64,000 nucleotides of DNA from Isoetes taiwanensis (Eukaryota > Streptophyta > Lycopodiopsida > Isoetales > Isoetaceae), in NCBI GenBank assembly GCA_021234155.1, contig JAJEKV010000483.1:62001-126000 (forward strand), written 5' to 3'. Below are positions 14,732-28,123 of the stretch, piece after piece. The position numbers were made by a program, and so were the translations under genes. Under the pieces are notes generated by a model. It had not been told where the DNA came from. It made no database searches and saw only the letters and a list, made by a program, of their open reading frames with translations. Position 1 is the first letter of the stretch; every line of letters starts with the position of its first letter.

Positions 14732-14736
14732 GTGAA

Positions 14737-16379
14737 TGTGACGCTCCCTGCTAAACATTCGGCACCCGGCCGTACACTAGGCAGGAAATCCCCCATCCGG
14801 CTCAACAACCGCACGGGCCCTTCGTCTACCCCGCACTCTGAGGTGACCCTTAGTGCGGGGAGGGAACACGAAGGTGTCTTGCGCGCCCTTCCCCTATGGG
14901 CTCCTATAACAGCGGAAGCGATAACACGTCAGAACTAGCATCAAACATATACAAATACTACCTCGAAGGGTAGCGCATCACACATATACCAATACAAAGA
15001 TGATAAGCACAAACCGTGAAACATGAGAGCTCCTACCCGCCGGACTTCGTGGGAGGATGACCGACCGGCTAGGGCCACAAGATAGAGCAGACCGAGTCAT
15101 GGCAATGGCGAGGGGCGGTATAGAACAATGGCTAGGGTTGACCACTCCATCCGCCCCTCCGTGCATACTTTGCGGATGAATTTTGAATCGGGGGCGACGG
15201 GACTCTAGCCTTCTCGGATACGCAATCCCATGGCATCACCCCCGGGACTACTCCGGTTGCATCTCCCTAGTCCCGACGCAGGCGGGGAAGGGTTGCATCT
15301 CCCTCCCGTGGTCTAGAGGTTCAGGTGGGCTAGAGAATCGCGGGCGACACACCATTCGTGCCGACTTAACCCCCAAAACGAGCCAAGCCAACACTTGCGG
15401 CTCTCGAGGAGGCGACACCATTGCCCGGTGAGGTGTCGGACCCATGCTCGGCCCGCCGCGAAGTGACCGACCATAAGCCTAGCCCACTATGGGATCCCGA
15501 AGCCCCCCACTCGGCAGGGGGATCCTCCCTCCACTTCCCTCTAGCCCCCGATTATATGGTCTTTGAGTCATATCATAGCCCCAATAGCCTGGTGGGCTCC
15601 CTATGCAATGTGCCGCATCTAATAGGAACTAAGGGATCTACTCTAGGAGCATACTACATATGGCCCTAGGTCTCTACCCCCCTTCCCAATACAAGAGGAG
15701 CAAACATGATCAACCAACATCACATAATCATCATCTCATGAGAATAATCATAAGAGAACATCTTAACCTAATCACACAAATCTAACTAATGGTTAGGGTT
15801 CCTTGATTAGGGTTCAAGATGTTGAATATGGGTTCTAGGATGGCTCTACTCTAGATACAAGATACTAGCATATCTGGAATGCTAATTCCAGATACGCTAT
15901 CACAACTACTACCCTACATACCTGCTCCTGATGCTCTCCCTCCAGATCCGTGTGCCTCCATGGTCTTCGACTCACGAGATGCTGCTCCTACTCCAAGAAC
16001 GAAGTCTACCTGCCGGAAATTTCTTTTTGCACCGATCTATGCCACGACAAGCGATGTTCAAAGCGGGTTTTGAACGAGTAGATGAGTCTCCGGGTGCTAG
16101 AATGGAAAGAGGCCTAGGGTTAGGGTTTAGGCCTATATAAGTTAGGTCCACCTAGGATGCCACGTGGCACCAATCGGGTGAGTCCTGTGTGGCGGTGCCC
16201 CAATAGGTTAAGGCCACGTGGATAATGGCTTAACCTATGGTTGGCTAAGTTATGAGAATAACTTAGCCATGCCCCCTAGTGCCACAACCTATGGTATACA
16301 AGGCTATGAAGATAGACTTGTATAGTGACGGATCCAGGAATATACGTATTTATGGCGTATATTCCCCTGGACCGTCACA
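14737..16379 (-). repeat. LTR (3' LTR in element orientation)
   Basis: 1,643 bp, TG...CA ended (TGTGAC...GTCACA). It adjoins the polypurine tract on its inner side. It matches the right LTR along its whole length: bases about 15680-15880 are almost identical to 27240-27440, while 14760-15660 and 15930-16100 contain frequent 1-5-base indels and CTG/CCG differences. The end that is U3 in sense orientation holds three hairpins (16205-16378). Confidence 0.93.
16205..16378 (-). promoter_or_regulatory. Hairpin cluster at the U3 end of the LTR
   Basis: Three inverted repeats occur in a row. The first (16205-16236) pairs AGGTTAAGGCC with GGCTTAACCT, with one bulge. The second (16243-16268) pairs 11-bp arms GGCTAAGTTAT around a GAGA loop perfectly. 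The third (16325-16378) pairs GTGACGG-TCCAGG-ATATACG with its complement across a 9-base loop and reaches the LTR terminus. All three are present in the right LTR (27747-27920). The role is unknown; they lie in the promoter part of the LTR. Confidence 0.8.
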
Positions 16380-17242: not shown

Positions 17243-17497
17243 CTAACCACCTGGCAAGTCGGGGTCGACCAAGTCGGAGACGACTCGCCCATCAAACTCC
17301 TTCATAAACTCTGGGTATTGCTTCTCCAAATCTTGCTTCAATACCCATGTCGCATCTTCCACGGGTAAGTGCTTCCACTTAACCAAATATTGGAGGAATT
17401 GAGACCTCCTAGTCTTCTTGAATGACTTATCAAGAAGTAACTCAGGCACTATTTCTACTTGCTCCTCCGTCATTTCCAACAAAGTTGGAGTATCCAA
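17243..17497 (-). CDS. Chromovirus integrase C-terminal chromodomain
   Basis: An 84-codon ORF, a frame fragment of the pol polyprotein. Residues about 33-67 (QFLQYLVKWKHLPVEDATWV followed by LKQDLEKQYPEFMKEF) match the chromodomain core of plant chromoviruses: Y-VKWK-lp-e-aTWe---d-----PeF. This module is fused to integrase and is thought to steer insertion to heterochromatin through methylated H3. The aromatic cage positions F/Y, W and W are in place (Y37, W41, W52 by my count). The ORF is split from the GPY/F segment by a frameshift near 17500-17537. Confidence 0.85.
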   Translation of the reverse strand: MDTPTLLEMTEEQVEIVPELLLDKSFKKTRRSQFLQYLVKWKHLPVEDATWVLKQDLEKQYPEFMKEFDGRVVSDLVDPDLPGG

Positions 17498-17536
17498 AAC
17501 CTCCTCAGGGTTAGGATTGTGCCTCTTTAATAAACT

Positions 17537-20718: not shown

Positions 20719-21189
20719 CTATGAAGTCCCGGGCCTCCCCGCTGGTGCCGTCGTCCTCGGCCCCTCATTGGGGAGTCCCAATCCATAAGCTCTGCCAAAG
20801 CTGACTGCATGACGAATGGACAATCATGTGTTCGGTGCCCTGGCTGGAAGCACTGGCATAACTTTTTCTCAATGCACTCTGTCTCTTCTCCTTGGGCAGA
20901 CCGTCTAGGAGACGCTTTAAGAGCACCGCCCCTCGATGCATTCTGCGGGCTTTACGGTCCCCAAAAGCTTTGTTCTCGACCCTTACCTTGCTGCTGACTC
21001 CCTCGATGGTGTAGCCGCTGATTGCTTACCCCGATATTGCCCCCGAGCACGCCTCGAACTCTTACCCCTGAAGGTTGATTGTTTCTCTGAGCGGAGTTGC
21101 TTTGGTGCCTCCTCCAAACTTATAGCTTTATCTTTGGCCTCAGAATCGACTTTGGGTTGATTGCTCTAACAAGCCTCTTGATATTGCCG

Positions 21190-22010
21190 TTCAACCCCTC
21201 AATGTAGGTATCCTTCGCTTGCCTTTTCTCGAGACTCCGGGAACATGCAGCCGAGCCTCATGAATTCTTTAGGTATACTTAGCCACACCGATAAGCTACC
21301 CCGATTCAACCTCAGAAAGCTGGCACGGATCTGTCTACTAGTATGAGACCTTGGCACATAGTGCTTAAGTGAAAGCTTTTGTGAAGGTCTTAAACCCGCA
21401 ATTGTTCCTCTTGACTTGTTGGACTTAGCATATCCCTTCCACCGGATCCGTCTTAGGTCCAATAAGGTTAGTCTGTAGCAACTTTCCCTATGTCCTTGTC
21501 TTTCATACCGTAGGAGTTGCCAAATTCTTCCATTTCATCAAGCCATGCTTCAGCCTCCATGCCGATCTGTCTTTCCTCGAGAACTGGTAGAAGCTTCCTT
21601 GTCTTCCATACATTGCTCATAGCACTATCCACCTTTTTCTCGATAGTCATCATCTTTCTTGCTCTTTTCCTTGCTTTAGGTGTGCGGGACCGGACTAGAG
21701 CTGTCCGGAGCTAAGAGCTGTCCTCCACTGGAATCTCCTCTTCTCCTCTTCCTTCTCCTATCCCACGGCGTTCCCTCGGTTGCCTCCCCTTCCTGCTGAG
21801 GGACTTCGTCACCACCCAGGAAAACAAGGTGGAGGTGGAGGACCATCTTCCCTGTGCATTCATGAGAGGTGTCGCCCAGCTTGATGAGATGTTGCATTTG
21901 GTTCCTCATCCGCACCAACCTTGCGTTGATCGGCCACGGTGACATATCCCGCTCAAAATCTTCTTGTTCTCGCCAAACAAGTTCCTTGGTACCCAATTAT
22001 GGGGTGGTGC
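21190..22010 (-). CDS. Gag core (frameshifted)
   Basis: Frame pieces from 22000 down to 21190 read FERDMSPWPINARLVRMR, then (21468-21653) VLEERQIGMEAEAWLDEMEE and FGNSYGMKD. 'AEAWLDEMEE-F' is the start of the retrotrans_gag fold in Ty3/gypsy elements. At 21199-21462 the frame gives RLNRGSLSVWLSIPKEFMRL and other garbled gag-like text. No clean CCHC knuckle can be read, though Cys-coding stretches occur near 20820-20860 (HDCPF.. on the minus strand). The gag is recognisable but broken. Confidence 0.6.
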
Positions 22011-24600
22011 TGGTCTTGAGATCCTCGTGACTTGAGTTCCTTGCTGCAAGGATTGATCATCAATACATTTTATTTGGGTTAGATGTTGATCAATCTTACT
22101 TGTAATTGAATTATCTTTAGTTATAAGAAATCATACAAAGCCTTACATTTGTAAAATGCTTAATAGTCATTAATACATAAGGATTACATGATAAGATAGA
22201 TATATCTTAGCATAATGGGGTACAAGAAATTATTTAGCACAAGACTTAAGAAAATTTTACAACTATTTAATGGCCTCCCGAAAGCCCCAAGAAGTTCTTG
22301 ACATCCCCTGAATCGGAGGCCTTGCCGAGGTTGCGCTAAGATGTTCCTTGTCGATCTTCCTTCAAGTGCTCTGCCATCTCGGTTCAGGAAGTTCGGTCTG
22401 TTGCCGCTACCACCAAAAGTGTTAAGGCCCCTAAGGTGCCCTCTCGCAAAGTCGAGGCAATGGAGTGCGACCGCCTGCTGAAAAGAATGATGTGGTCGGC
22501 ATGGGCATATATCTTCATCGCTGCCCCGGCCAGAGAGTGCTATGAGAAGTGCCACGGATTCTTCCCCCTTGGGCTGAACTCCTTGTGGAAGACTATCATT
22601 TGCCCCCGGCCGAGGGCTGGAAGATAGTAGCGGCGCCATGCCCTTCCCTGCACCTCGCGATCCGGTGCCCTTCCTTTGAGCCGCCACCGAAGCATCCACC
22701 GCCATAAGGTCTCGCGGATCTCTCCACATGCCGGGTTCGCTTGTCCAAGTTGATGCCGCTTTGGATCCTTCCCTCATGCTCCCCGGGCTCAACTGGTCGG
22801 GCTTGAGCTTGGGCCCCTCCCCAGGCTTGTAGAGTGTGCTCAGATCCGGCTGGAACTCCTCCTCCGAGATGATAGGTTCCTCGCTGGCCGATAGATCTCC
22901 TTATCTGGCCGATAGGCCGCTATATCTCGACATTGTCTCCCCGCCAAGAGTGTCTCTCCGCGGCCCCTTTGGAATCTTCTCGTATGAGTAGTCGATGAAG
23001 TCTCAAGGCCTTCCCCGGTGCTATCATGCCCAAGAGCTCGCCGACCAAGACCCCTGTTCCCGCAATAGGACAAGTTGAGGATGTCATTTGCAAAATGTAC
23101 TCCTCCCCCGCCGATGACTATCTACGGCATGAAAGCCGTAATGCCGCAAGGTGGGTCGTAGTCGCTCTCATGTCGCCGCCGCGGCCTCAACGCATACCCT
23201 GCATCCTTGTTGCCTCCCCGCTCTCCCATTCCGGGTTCTCGCTCCCTAGTCGCCGTAGTCTTCATGGATCTGCAGAGATGGTGCCCCCCGACGCCGTGCC
23301 ATAGTATTCATAGGCGGAGGATTCTATATTCGTGGATTTGATCCCCGGCTCTACCTGCATCAAGTGGGGCTAAGTCTAAGGGCTGAACAGAGGGTTCCCC
23401 TACTTTGTTGATTGACTTATAGTGCATGAAGAGGGCAAGGGTTGTCCGAGACCTAAAGGTACCTATGCCTATTGTGTCTCAGGTCATGTAATCGGGCATG
23501 GTCCTAGTCCTATCCCATAATCGCTTCTTGCCTTTGGATCCTCGCCAACTCTCACCTAAGGCTTGGGTAAGTGTCTCAAGAGAAACCCATTCCCTCCCCT
23601 AGGAGGCAGCCTAACTTCCCAAGGCAAGGGACCTCGCTGGTCATATTGGCACATAATGTCCGCGGTAGTAGGGTGTTCTAGTCAAAGTTGCATGAAGATC
23701 AAACAAGTGGTCAAACACGTAGAAGGCTTGATCTACGTGAAGTCGATGGATATGGCTTGCAAGATTGTACCATCTCTCAAAGTTGTTTGGGCCATTGAGC
23801 AAGAAAGGGTGTAGAAAATGGCTTGCAAAGATCGGTGGAGGTTCGTAAAATCGCCTAAGGGGCTGGGAGCAGTTCTGTAGGAAGAAAAATGGCAAATGAG
23901 ACCGGGTGACCTCGGGGTTCGTGCAAAAAGGTACCTACCTAAGACGGCCTTGGTTCTATGGCTCTGGGTGTCCAACTGAACTACCATGAAGTGCAAATTT
24001 AAGCAAAACAAAGCAAGAAACACTATATGGCAGTTTGTTGGATCAATTTTGGCTAATTTGGGTCAAAATTGGTTGACTCCGTGAATCATACGGATGGCCT
24101 CCCTCGTCACGGGGGACGCAGACGTTTGGCAGCTTGTCTCACCCGGTTGGCCTATTTTGGGCCAATTTTTGGTCAATTTAGGGAATTTGAAGATGCTAAT
24201 ATGGCTAATTGGGCCGATTCTAACCTAACTAGCAACTTATTTTGAGCAAAACTGACATCTAAAAGCATGATTTTGGGGCCCGGGTGAAGTGAATCTGAAC
24301 GCCGCTTCGGGGACGCAGAGGCCTTAGGCGCGGTCTCACCCGGTTGGCCCCAATTTTAGCATTTTTGATGATTTTTTTTGCCAAAATTTTGTTGTAGTCA
24401 TGATTTCTAGGATATTTCTGAGGGTGCTATGAAGAATTCTACTACAATTGGGTTCTATTTCCTAAATTTCAAGCATACGACATTTTTTCTAATTATAGAG
24501 GGAAAATAACTTTTATATTAATAAGAAAACACGCTTACATGAAAATTTAACTTTTCTAACAAAATTTACAAAATTTGAGGCCTAGGGCCTCTCCCATGAT
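22011..24600 (-). other. Chromovirus internal region without recognised domain
   Basis: 2.6 kb between the extra 5' ORF and gag. It contains an open frame at 22184-22792 (202 codons, rich in Gly, Arg, Ser and Pro, no motif known to me) and AT-rich non-coding DNA at 23350-24560. The phrase 'tcacccggttggcc' with a preceding 'gggggacgcagac' or 'ggggacgcagag' occurs twice, at 24106-24155 and 24308-24345, a local duplication. The region may be former gag N-terminus plus spacer, or captured DNA. Confidence 0.5.
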
Positions 24601-25699
24601 CCTCCTTTGTCCTTCCCGCATGAGGGTGACCCGCTTTTAGCATGGATTGGCGATAGGTTCCTTTCCTCAAGAGCTGCAAACTCTTGCTTCGGGTGCCCTC
24701 TGTGGCCCGTCATTAGAGGGGTAACCCCAGAATCGGTCCCGAATCGCTGCATGACTCTCTAAGGAGACGCCAAGGGCCTTTCTTATTAGGAGATTCGCGG
24801 CACATCCAGAAGTGCCAGATCTCCCTAAACACCCGGGCTGCGTCTTTGCTCGCCCGTGGTGAACCCTCTTGGGTTTTTCTCCTGGCCTAGGTGGGGGTGG
24901 CTTGGGCTGATTCTTCTTCGCCTGCCGCCCCTCCACAACGGGCTGGCACCTCCCTCGGGCGGCAAGTAACAAATCGTTGTACCTCGGGTCAACGAGCAGC
25001 CGGAGGTGGCCTCCCTTGTACGCTGCCGCCATCTTCCGCTTTGAACTCAGCGGTCATGTCTGGGAATGAATGGGCTCTCCTACCTTTTGCTTCTTCACCA
25101 CCTTAGGTGGTTCAAACCCTGGGGTAGGGTGGCCTAAGCGTCGAGGGTCTGCCGCGGCTCCTCCTCCTCTTCTCCGTAAGCCCTCCTCTTGTGCTTCCTC
25201 CTCCTGCCTGGGGCTCTTCAATAACGAGCCGGTCCGTGAGGAGGGCGTCGTTCCTCCTCTTCGTTCTCGCTCTTTTTGCTGAGCTCCCTTTCCCGCTCCC
25301 TCTTCTTCGGGCGGCTCTCTCCTCGGCCACTCCTCGACCTTTTCCTTACCTTCTTCTTGGGCAACCGAAGTTCCGCTTCCTCGATTTGGTGGTGGTCTTT
25401 GCTCTTCCACGTTCTTCTTCAACTGTTCTTCCACCTCGGTATGCGAGGCCCCGGTGGCGAGATTCATCCGTTCTCTGCGTGCCTCGATGATGGCGAGGCT
25501 GCTGCTGGGGTCACTTTCGGCATCATGGAAGGAGTCCACCATTGCTTTGCCCTACTTCTTGCCGGCGTGGGGGCTCCTCGTCGCCCGGCTTGGGCCGAAG
25601 GTGTTCAGGGACCTTCTTGACATGTCGCCCTGCTGCCTGCGCCATGGAGAGGGTGGGTCTAGGTCCAGGTTTCCTGTAGGTTTGCTTGGTGCGAGCCAT
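24600..25699 (-). CDS. Chromovirus 5' ORF with histone H3-like N-terminus
   Basis: The ORF starts at the ATG of 25699-25697. The codons before it are TAA GAT, so no longer N-terminus is possible. It reads MARTKQTYRKPGPRPTLSMA, 58 codons to a TGA at 25525-25523. The +1 frame opens at once at 25542 (MVDSFHDAESDPSSSLAII) and continues to 25054 as a charged, Glu/Arg/Pro-rich chain (VEEQLKKNVEEQR, KVEEWPRREPPEEEG), and a third frame continues (24667-25032: MAAAYKGGHLRLLVDPRYND, KPPPPRPGEKPKR). The three are probably one ORF of about 370 codons broken by indels. Its place after the leader is that of gag, but no gag motif is visible. The first ten residues match the H3 tail except position 8 counting Met (Ala to Tyr). 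Confidence 0.7.
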
Positions 25700-26260
25700 A
25701 TCTTACGGTTCAGGAGATGGGTGACGTAAGGCTGGGCAAGAGAGAGGTGGAGGTGAAGGGTTGGAGAGAGAGAATGAGGTGTCAGATATTTAAAAAGGAG
25801 GGTCCCTGGGAATATTCTCCTACCATAATTACCCCTATTTATTAGCCCCCCTTATTAATTACACCATATTTAGTAATTATTTAATTATTAATGTATATAT
25901 TAAATCTATATTAATTGATATTATACTTAAATTTTTGAATTTTTCTAATGGTTCGAAGTGCTAATTATGAGTTTGCGCCATTTTTCACCTGGGTCTCCGA
26001 TTGGCATGATTCTTCGACCCATTTTAGGTGAAATTTGATGCAGATACATAATTTTCACTCCAAATTTACTAGAAGATGAGTTTGACTCACTCAAACCTTC
26101 GTCTAACACTTAACCTAAGTCCTGACCCACTACCTAGAGAAAAAAATTTTTCCCCATTTTCAAGGGTTCAATGGTGGAAATGTTTATTTCACACCCCTAT
26201 AGGCCTGTTAGACTACTTCATGGTTATGGTCAGTGCTAGTTCTTGGTCAACCAAGAACAT
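25700..26260 (-). other. Chromovirus 5' leader
   Basis: About 560 bp between the primer-binding site and the first ORF, AT-rich, no ORF. This would be the untranslated leader carrying packaging signals. Confidence 0.6.
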
Positions 26261-26274
26261 CGCCTCGATACCAT
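26261..26274 (-). other. Primer-binding site (tRNA-iMet-like)
   Basis: Immediately inside the 5' LTR, after one spacer base, the minus strand reads TGGTATCGAGGCG. The plant initiator tRNA-Met site is TGGTATCAGAGC; the copy matches if one A of 'CAG' is missing. This is one more case of a base lost at CAG in this element. Confidence 0.75.
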
Positions 26275-27921
26275 TGTGACGCTCCTCGTAAAAACATACC
26301 AAGACCCTACCGCAGTACTAGGAGGAAATCCCCCATCCCGGCTCAACAAATCGCGGGCTTCGCCTACCCCGCCCAGCACTCGAGGTGACCCTTAGTGCGG
26401 GAGGGAACACGGTAAGGTGTCTTGCGCGCCCTTCCCCTATGGGCTCCTATAACAAATGAAGCGATATAACACGCCGTAACTAGCATCAAACATATACAAA
26501 TACTACCTCAAGGGTAGCGCATCACACATATACCAATACAAAGATGATAAGCACAAACCGCGGAAACATGAGAGCTCCTACCCCGCCGCACTCGTAAGGA
26601 GGATGACTGACCGCTAGGCCACAAGATAGAGCGACCAGGAGTCATGGCAATGGCGAGGGGCTGGCATAGAACAATGGCTAGGGTTGACCACTCCATCATC
26701 CCCCCCTGCATACTTTGCGGATGGGGTGAATCAGGCTCACTGGGACTCTAGCCTTGCGGATAACGCAATCCCATGGCATCACCCCGGGACTACTCCAGGT
26801 TGCATCTCCCTAGTCCGACGAGGAGGCGGGAAGGGTTGCATCTCCCTCCCCGTGGGTCTAGAGGTTCCGTGGGTGGCTAGAGAATCGTGGGCGACACACA
26901 CCCACTGCACCGACTTAACCCCCAAAGCAGAGCCAAGCCAACACTTGCGGCTCTCGAGGAGGTGGCGCACACCATTGCCCGGGGAGGTGTCGGACCCATG
27001 CTCGGCCCGCACGTGAGGACCCACCATAAGCCTAGCCCACTATGGGATCCCCCGAAGCCCCCACTCGGCGGGGATCCTCCCTCCACTTTCCCTCTAGCCC
27101 CCGCTATATGGTGCCGAGTCATATCATAGCCCCAATAGCCCGGGTGGGCTCCTATGCACAAAGCCGCATCTAATAGGAACTAAGGGATCTACTCTAGGAG
27201 CATACTACATATGGCCCTAGGTCTCTACCCCCTTCCCAATACAAGAGGAGCAAACATGATCAACCAACATCACATAATCATCATCTCATGAGAATAATCA
27301 TAAGAGAACATCTTAACCTAATCACACAAATCTAACTAATGGTTAGGGTTCCTTGATTAGGGTTCAAGATGTTGAATATGGGTTCTAGGATGGCTCTACT
27401 CTAGATATTAAGATACTAGCATATCCGGAATGCTAATTCCAGACACGCTATCACAACTACTACCCTACATACCGCCCCGATGCTCTCCCTCCAGATCCGT
27501 GTGCCTCCATGGTCTTCGACTCACGAGATGCCGCCCTACTCCAAGAACGAAGTCTACCCTCGCCGGGCCGCCGCGACCCGCCCATGCCACAAGAACGATG
27601 TTCAAACGGGGTTTCAACGCAGTAGATGAGTCTCCGGGTGCTAGGGCTGGAAAGAGGCCTAGGGTTAGGGTTTAGGCCTATAAGTTAGGTCCACCTAGGA
27701 TGCCATGTGGCACCAATCGGTGAGTCCTGCGGTGGCGGTGCCCCAACAGGTTAAGGCCACGGGATAATGGCTTAACCTATGGTTGGCTAAGTTATGAGAA
27801 TAACTTAGCCATGCCCCCTAGTGCCACAACCTATGGTATACAAGGCTATGAAGATAGACTTGTATAGTGACGGATCCAGGAATATACGTATTTATGGCGT
27901 ATATTCCCCTGGACCGTCACA
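26275..27921 (-). repeat. LTR (5' LTR in element orientation)
   Basis: 1,647 bp. Same ends and internal hairpins as the left LTR (hairpins at 27785-27810 and 27867-27920). It is followed by GTGAA, the target-site duplication. Confidence 0.93.
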
Positions 27922-28123
27922 GTGAAGCATAGCTGATAATTTGGTCTTGCCTTTAGACTGTATGGCATCAATCAAGCCTGAATGTAGAGCTTATTTTAGC
28001 TAAATGTTGGACATGGAATAATTGGATACTTCGTAAGAATGTGAATAAATAGTTTTGGTCTTGAAAGTTGAGCTCTAGACTTGAGCTTTACTTTGTCTAA
28101 GTAGGAAAGGGCGTTTTCCATAT

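Follow-up and report, generated by a model that had tools for sequence, protein, structure and literature searches.

A probable histone H3 variant in the accessory open reading frame of a chromodomain retrotransposon from Isoetes taiwanensis

A stretch of 64,000 nucleotides from Isoetes taiwanensis (contig JAJEKV010000483.1, positions 62,001 to 126,000 of the forward strand; hereafter, the window) carries on its minus strand a retrotransposon with long terminal repeats (LTRs) and a chromodomain, in which an accessory open reading frame (ORF) located between the 5' LTR and gag starts with the first residues of histone H3. By comparing the window with the sister copies of the element in the same genome, we consider it probable that this accessory ORF encodes a histone H3 variant, which the element took up from an H3 gene of the host type and which selection has since maintained. 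In the open copies, the encoded protein consists of an H3 tail (residues 1-10), a C-terminal histone H3 fold and, between them, some 230 amino acids (aa) of charged linker that replace most of the remaining tail.

The accessory ORF begins like histone H3

On the minus strand of the window, an ATG at 25699 opens a frame of 58 codons that is closed by a stop and ends at 25523 (product MARTKQTYRKPGPRPTLSMAQAAGRHVKKVPEHLRPKPGDEEPPRRQEVGQSNGGLLP), and the N-terminal run at its opening is MARTKQTYRKPGPRP. The codons 5' of the ATG are CCG TAA GAT, with the TAA in frame two codons upstream, and the residues MARTKQTYRK are the same as those of histone H3 at 9 of 10 positions when the Met is counted. 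The H3-like N terminus that an original prediction, made from the letters of the window, had described within a chromodomain LTR retrotransposon is therefore real. That prediction had also regarded a chance match of MARTKQT as very unlikely, which held in part. The local base composition puts the probability of ARTKQT after an ATG at 1.5e-7, and the composition of the whole window puts it at 1.8e-8; the runner-up among the 3029 ATGs of the window matched the H3 start at 5 of 10 positions. However, the tail pattern was found in 115 stretches of viral contigs (IMG/VR), 33 of them chance matches to MARTKQT that fell into 17 groups differing after the motif, and no plant element was recognised among the 115 stretches. 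Because MARTKQT recurs by chance in viral contigs, a single sighting proves little. The phage-contig ORFs that start with MARTKQT (L013, L014, L024 and others) provide in their own right a useful base rate against which claimed cases of H3 tail mimicry can be judged.

Several tests were restricted to the window's own sequence. In shuffles of the stretch with the H3 ORF, the longest open frame was not unusual (p 0.335), and 3.8% of the shuffles had, among the six frames, one with no more than a single stop. A shuffle test for H3 similarity beyond residue 10 within the 58 codons, which covered only the broken stretch, was negative (p 0.45), and the resemblance of AAGRHVKKVPEHLRPK to H3 GGVKKPHRYRPG received no support from the shuffle test on the window stretch (p 0.45). 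A protein database search with residues 1-58 against proteins of 189-600 aa gave 13 candidates, none at an expectation value (E) of 10, and a search with the broken window frame as query, a weak test, found no relative among 7993 scored candidates. In the control with a protease-reverse transcriptase (RT) query, 7978 of the 7985 scored candidates reached E 1e-20, with many named plants among the 120 listed; no relative of the element was found by its RT in IMG/VR. An explanation in which MARTKQT stands in the leader without coding meaning would agree with the phage-contig matches, with the outcome of the search with residues 1-58 and with the ordinary longest frame. Nevertheless, it is refuted by the sister copies, the fold and the selection described below, chance being ruled out because the sister copies conserve the tail, and its probability is practically nil.

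Sister copies encode an H3 tail, a linker and an H3 fold

The sister copies were searched for in the 1.66-Gb genome assembly (1110 contigs) with the 58-aa product as query. This search gave 1305 candidates, 150 of which were scored, all with E 4.1e-15 or better; the alignment started at residue 1 in 149 of these 150, and 2 had a stop inside. The 97 loci examined (L116-L192 and L223-L242) represent 65 distinct copies, the window copy included, and 34 of the 65 have open frames of 360-385 aa. An LTR end, a leader and a site resembling a primer-binding site (PBS) 557-583 nucleotides 5' of the ATG were present in all 38 upstream pieces, which came from 30 distinct copies including that of the window.

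Of the 65 copies, 64 keep the tail in frame and 63 follow the pattern MARTKQT-Y/A-RK, 53 with Y and 10 with A. The two exceptions are MARTKRTYRK, with R for Q5, and a copy that has lost the frame; the ten copies with Ala at position 7 equal H3 in 10 of 10 residues. Position 10, just after K9, is occupied by P, T, Y or A in all 65 copies and never by S. H3 residues 11-33 are not recognisable in the fusion, the part with K14, K18, K23 and K27 thus being missing, and the protein departs from the canonical H3 length of 136. The linker is rich in E, R, K and P (21% K+R and 21% D+E in the open copy L187), and PKKKGKEK occurs in 42 of the 48 copies that have at least 150 open residues.

The C-terminal part of the protein was recognised as a histone in both Pfam and PDB searches. 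The two proteins scanned with Pfam, L187 and L176, matched Histone (PF00125) with 101.4 and 101.1 bits (cut-off 26.4; E 5.2e-29 and 6.7e-29), and residues 258-368 of L187 (369 aa) matched PDB histone H3 with E 6.4e-31; the 60 PDB matches listed were H3-type chains or were named only as histone-domain proteins. The fold motif IHAK is present in all 34 open copies, and over the fold all of them share 64-70% identity with host H3 (15 canonical H3 genes as reference). Contact positions were compared in 29 of the 34 open copies, 5 having been dropped as the search string was not found in them at full length. Residues R49, R63, R69, R72, R83, C110, H113, K115, R116 and D123, which we take to be DNA or H3-H3 contacts, were invariant in these 29 copies. 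The centromeric variant CENH3 is characterised by an extended loop 1, which joins alpha 1 to alpha 2, and this trait was absent from the fusion, the two alignments examined showing no gap against canonical H3.

The presence of the fold in the same protein implies that the first ten residues are an H3 tail by descent. A convergent tail mimic was accordingly rejected, and with it the tail-only mimicry that had initially been proposed for this ORF.

The tail and the fold are under purifying selection

Across the 64 copies whose tail remains in frame, codons 2-7, 9 and 10 include 1 non-synonymous codon in 512, and synonymous variation is seen in the codons used for Ala, Arg, Thr, Lys and Gln. In the 34 open copies, the ratio of non-synonymous to synonymous change (omega) was 0.074 over residues 2-10, 0.121 over residues 11-40, 0.125 over the linker and 0.078 over the fold. 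When the copies were thinned at 92% identity, the remaining 19, with a synonymous divergence (dS) of 0.8-1.1, gave 0.070 for the tail, 0.115 for residues 11-40, 0.121 for the linker and 0.077 for the fold, and resampling of the copies placed the tail at 0.047-0.087 and the fold at 0.072-0.083. Tail and fold are thus under purifying selection, and the two checks suggested for the motif, its presence in sister copies and its selection, both came out in its favor.

These values also bear on the possibility that the H3 sequence is a functionless transduplicate that hitchhikes with the element, as inferred for the hAT elements of some fungi. H3 capture by a transposon, with mostly truncated and inactivated copies in P. 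fijiensis, has been published, as excerpts of PMC6710886 describe, yet an omega of 0.07-0.12 at a dS of 0.8-1.1 among the open copies makes such passive carriage very improbable here. In the same way, a captured scrap of an H3 gene, which had been named as one case that would undo the original prediction, proved right with respect to the capture and wrong with respect to the scrap, the gene having been kept for long under selection.

Several points weigh against an H3 variant captured and maintained by the element. Twenty of the 34 open copies (L223-L242) were chosen for a long open frame in the list, the other copies being open in 14 of 45 cases, and the copies were retrieved with a tail-bearing query, so that tail conservation is partly ascertained; ascertainment alone is nonetheless an unlikely cause of the intact tails because an unconstrained tail would rarely survive intact at such divergence. 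In the 29 compared folds, neither K56 nor K79 is kept, F84 and Q85 are changed, and T80, L126 and R128-R131 show one or two exceptions, so standard nucleosomes are not assured. The raw frames of the window, whose ORF is broken, gave no histone (PF00125) match with Pfam. The window's RT was present in one of the two copies tested, since L118, which has an open ORF, carries it at an equal distance with 90.7% DNA identity and broken RT frames, and L187 is without RT at the window's offset. Finally, the element appears Tekay-like by its layout alone (a 5' accessory ORF and a PBS taken as tRNA-Met-like).

Organization of the element in the window

The features of the element, all on the minus strand, are as follows.

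27922..27926, minus: target-site duplication TTCAC, 5' side, identical to 14732-14736
26275..27921, minus: 5' LTR of about 1.65 kb, TGTGAC...GTCACA, in direct repeat with 14737-16379, ends checked
26257..26273, minus: PBS TGGTATCGAGGCGATG.., one base after the 5' LTR, presumably tRNA-Met-like
25788..25795, minus: TATA-like box followed by a CT-rich stretch (together 25765-25795), assigned by eye
24582..25699, minus: accessory ORF 1, putative histone H3 fusion protein, broken, aligning in pieces to L187 residues 1-349
25670..25699, minus: H3 tail residues MARTKQTYRK, from the translated sequence, conserved in copies
24585..24838, minus: remains of the histone H3 fold, L187 residues 279-349 matching 24838-24636
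20781..21638, minus: gag capsid and zinc knuckle, broken, by tblastn with the Gag of the related element L218
19309..20718, minus: protease and RT (PF08284 1.8e-8, PF00078 1.5e-40; plant homologues)
17246..17536, minus: chromodomain at the end of pol (PF00385 3.4e-12; PDB chromodomains)
14737..16379, minus: 3' LTR, in direct repeat with the 5' LTR
14732..14736, minus: target-site duplication TTCAC, 3' side, matching the 5' side

The order of LTRs, PBS, gag, protease, RT and chromodomain in the window is that of a chromovirus, and the sequence identifies the element as a chromodomain LTR retrotransposon of the Ty3/gypsy type. The hallmarks of hAT elements, terminal inverted repeats and a hAT transposase, are absent; instead, the element has LTRs, a 5-base target duplication and gag-pol. 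The window gag was found in three pieces with 28-50% identity to the Gag of L218 (best E 9.5e-22, tblastn). The H3 ORF had been taken for the N terminus of Gag, an identity that was rejected, as gag-like sequence lies about 4 kb downstream at 21638-20781. The H3 ORF is a 5' accessory ORF, as it follows the PBS in the copies, exceeds in the open copies the 250 codons asked of such an ORF and has gag 3' of it in the window. Nine other ATGs lie between the PBS and the H3 ORF in the window copy, the longest of them opening 34 codons, and the TATA-like box and CT-rich stretch, which lie downstream of these ATGs and just 5' of the H3 ORF, are a possible internal promoter. Among the sister copies, the region from +5.4 to +6.6 kb of L187 (L243) is without RT, and L187 may be shorter, interrupted or non-autonomous.

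The window copy of the accessory ORF is broken

Window positions 25699-24636 align in pieces to residues 1-349 of L187, and the L187 DNA 3' of the ORF matches window 24584-24050 at 88% identity; from the latter match, the 3' end of the window ORF was inferred to be at 24582. Residues 106-134 of canonical H3 gave weak matches (E 3.5) at 24668-24589, which is part of the broken fold. The frame break after codon 58 is specific to the window copy or its contig, the 34 open copies reading through to their full 360-385 aa. Compared with L161, the nearest open copy, the window copy shows 84 gap runs, of which 79 have lengths not divisible by three, together with 64 substitutions. Under one set of gap costs, 89 gap runs and 58 substitutions separate the two window LTRs, and the differences number 74 in 479 bases near CG or CHG sites versus 45 in 1170 elsewhere, one-base gaps being common.

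Sequence errors in the contig could be the source of the broken copy, decay with age being the alternative. The former reading is weakened because other gap costs give fewer gaps between the window LTRs (33 gap runs, 194 substitutions) and because the open copies L118 and L120 are also rich in gaps (49 gap runs, 40 of them of a length not divisible by three, beside 158 substitutions). L118 and L171 differ by 8 gap runs and 84 substitutions.

A second H3 fusion in related elements

A search of the genome with Pfam PF00125 gave 8705 first-look candidates, all histones included, and the 150 that were scored were all above the cut-off. Of 30 loci examined (L193-L222), 15 were canonical H3 and 15 were of another kind (L208-L222). 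The H3 fold motif is present in all 15 loci of this second type, an MPRFKLTVD-like start lies in the same locus in 12 of them, and the 11 folds that were compared share 85-90% identity with host H3. In L218, the ORF after the H3 fusion is the Gag that is 28-50% identical to that of the window, and in at least five others (L208, L210, L211, L220 and L222) the H3 fusion is succeeded by a different ORF, at least 420 codons long (mostly ..WYLDGEHWDPAVPF..), which had no match in the window. Judged by the majority residue, the two fold types have no derived residue in common with respect to host H3, and five positions differ in both, each in another way. Since no derived residue is common to both folds, the two fusion types are probably separate captures of H3. 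The second type of element with an H3 fusion may be very numerous.

Possible functions of the accessory protein

It had been suggested that the tail is read by the chromodomain of the element itself. With the cage positions of HP1, which we assume to be a valid reference, the chromodomain of the window retains by eye one of three aromatic cage positions. Chromodomains of seed-plant chromoviruses are described as being without the aromatic cage in excerpts of PMC6317226. Given these cage-less chromodomains and the loss of two of the three positions here, the chromodomain of the element is unlikely to be the reader of the tail, in which, moreover, K9 is never followed by Ser.

Because most of the DNA-contact and H3-H3 contact positions are kept, the protein may instead enter the nucleus, pair with host H4 and form H3-like tetramers or nucleosomes, a proposal to which we give slightly less than an even chance. 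An H3 encoded by the element would act on the element's own DNA, either in the packaging of its complementary DNA (cDNA) or in the chromatin at new insertions. Its tail would keep the K4 side, and K9 without S10, and would lack the K14-K27 part, and the likely benefit would be an altered silencing or targeting of the element. More tentatively, the lineage might use its own H3 for element-specific nucleosomes on cDNA and insertions, a K4-markable tail without S10 and the K14-K27 code would steer silencing or targeting, and the second uptake of H3 would reflect a strategy and not an accident; we regard this broader proposal as possible, with the balance leaning against it.

Two other roles would keep the protein out of chromatin. 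In the first, the tail would be a decoy that engages the readers and writers of H3, either by binding them or as their substrate, and the fold would serve only to dimerise or stabilise the protein. A tail omega as low as that of the fold, the intact K4 context and the divergence of the fold at K56, K79, F84 and Q85 are in agreement with a decoy, whereas the constraint on the fold equals that on the tail and its ten contact positions are invariant in the 29 compared copies; we find a decoy role unlikely. In the second, which we rate lower still, the charged linker and the dimerising fold would bind the RNA or cDNA of the element in particles, and the tail would be a surface for import or nucleic-acid binding. 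The K+R and D+E content of the L187 linker, the frequent PKKKGKEK and the carriage of the ORF by the element fit such a packaging protein, which would nevertheless leave the H3-exact residues 1-6, K4 included, without a reason. An H3-like partner of host H4 is thus the role that we prefer for the protein, with the reserve expressed above.

Comparison with known systems

Host silencing of retrotransposons works largely via histone H3 marks. If the proposed reading is true, an element that produces and keeps an H3 variant would intervene directly in the substrate on which host silencing operates, would offer a natural test of which H3 tail residues count for silencing in plants and might supply new H3 variants; a 5' accessory ORF of chromoviruses would also gain a function open to testing. 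Histones encoded by viruses, such as the H4 of bracoviruses and the histones of giant viruses, are likewise cases of a selfish element with its own core histone, and differ in that they belong to DNA viruses and are other histones or doublets.

Accessory ORFs (5'aORF, orf0) are described in Tekay chromoviruses, namely sunflower Tekay 13-2, maize Tekay, RIRE3/RIRE8 and Retrosat2, in excerpts of PMC11728184, PMC3485330 and PMC6317226. According to these sources, they occupy the same place between the 5' LTR and gag, have a biased composition, are predicted to be nuclear and show little or no similarity between plants, and the roles given to them are proposed and not proven (PMC11728184, PMC3485330, PMC6317226). 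The sunflower 5'aORF has 402 aa and is found in 500 of 523 related elements; it is reported to match no known domain and to lack amino-acid similarity to its counterparts in grasses (excerpts of PMC11728184), in contrast to the H3 fold present here. The main text of PMC3485330 does not contain the word "histone", and PMC6317226 contains it once, for chromodomains. No report of an LTR retrotransposon encoding a histone was among the matches listed in the open-licence PMC literature, and a mention in the supplementary domain tables of PMC6317226 is possible. A Ty3/gypsy element of orchids with an N6-methyladenosine (m6A) RNA demethylase domain is also a plant LTR retrotransposon with a regulatory domain, yet one that carries no histone in the excerpts of PMC9289625.

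The closest parallel to the capture itself is provided by the hAT DNA transposons of Dothideomycete fungi, which captured histone H3 (excerpts of PMC6710886). These elements are likewise mobile and have multiplied an H3-like coding sequence, with 784 copies in P. fijiensis, where 90% of the copies are truncated and copies have been inactivated by repeat-induced point mutation, and with transcriptionally active copies in Pyrenophora (PMC6710886). The fungal case concerns a DNA transposon for which the excerpts of PMC6710886 describe no added linker, whereas the element of I. taiwanensis is a plant LTR retrotransposon in which both the tail and the fold are under selection.
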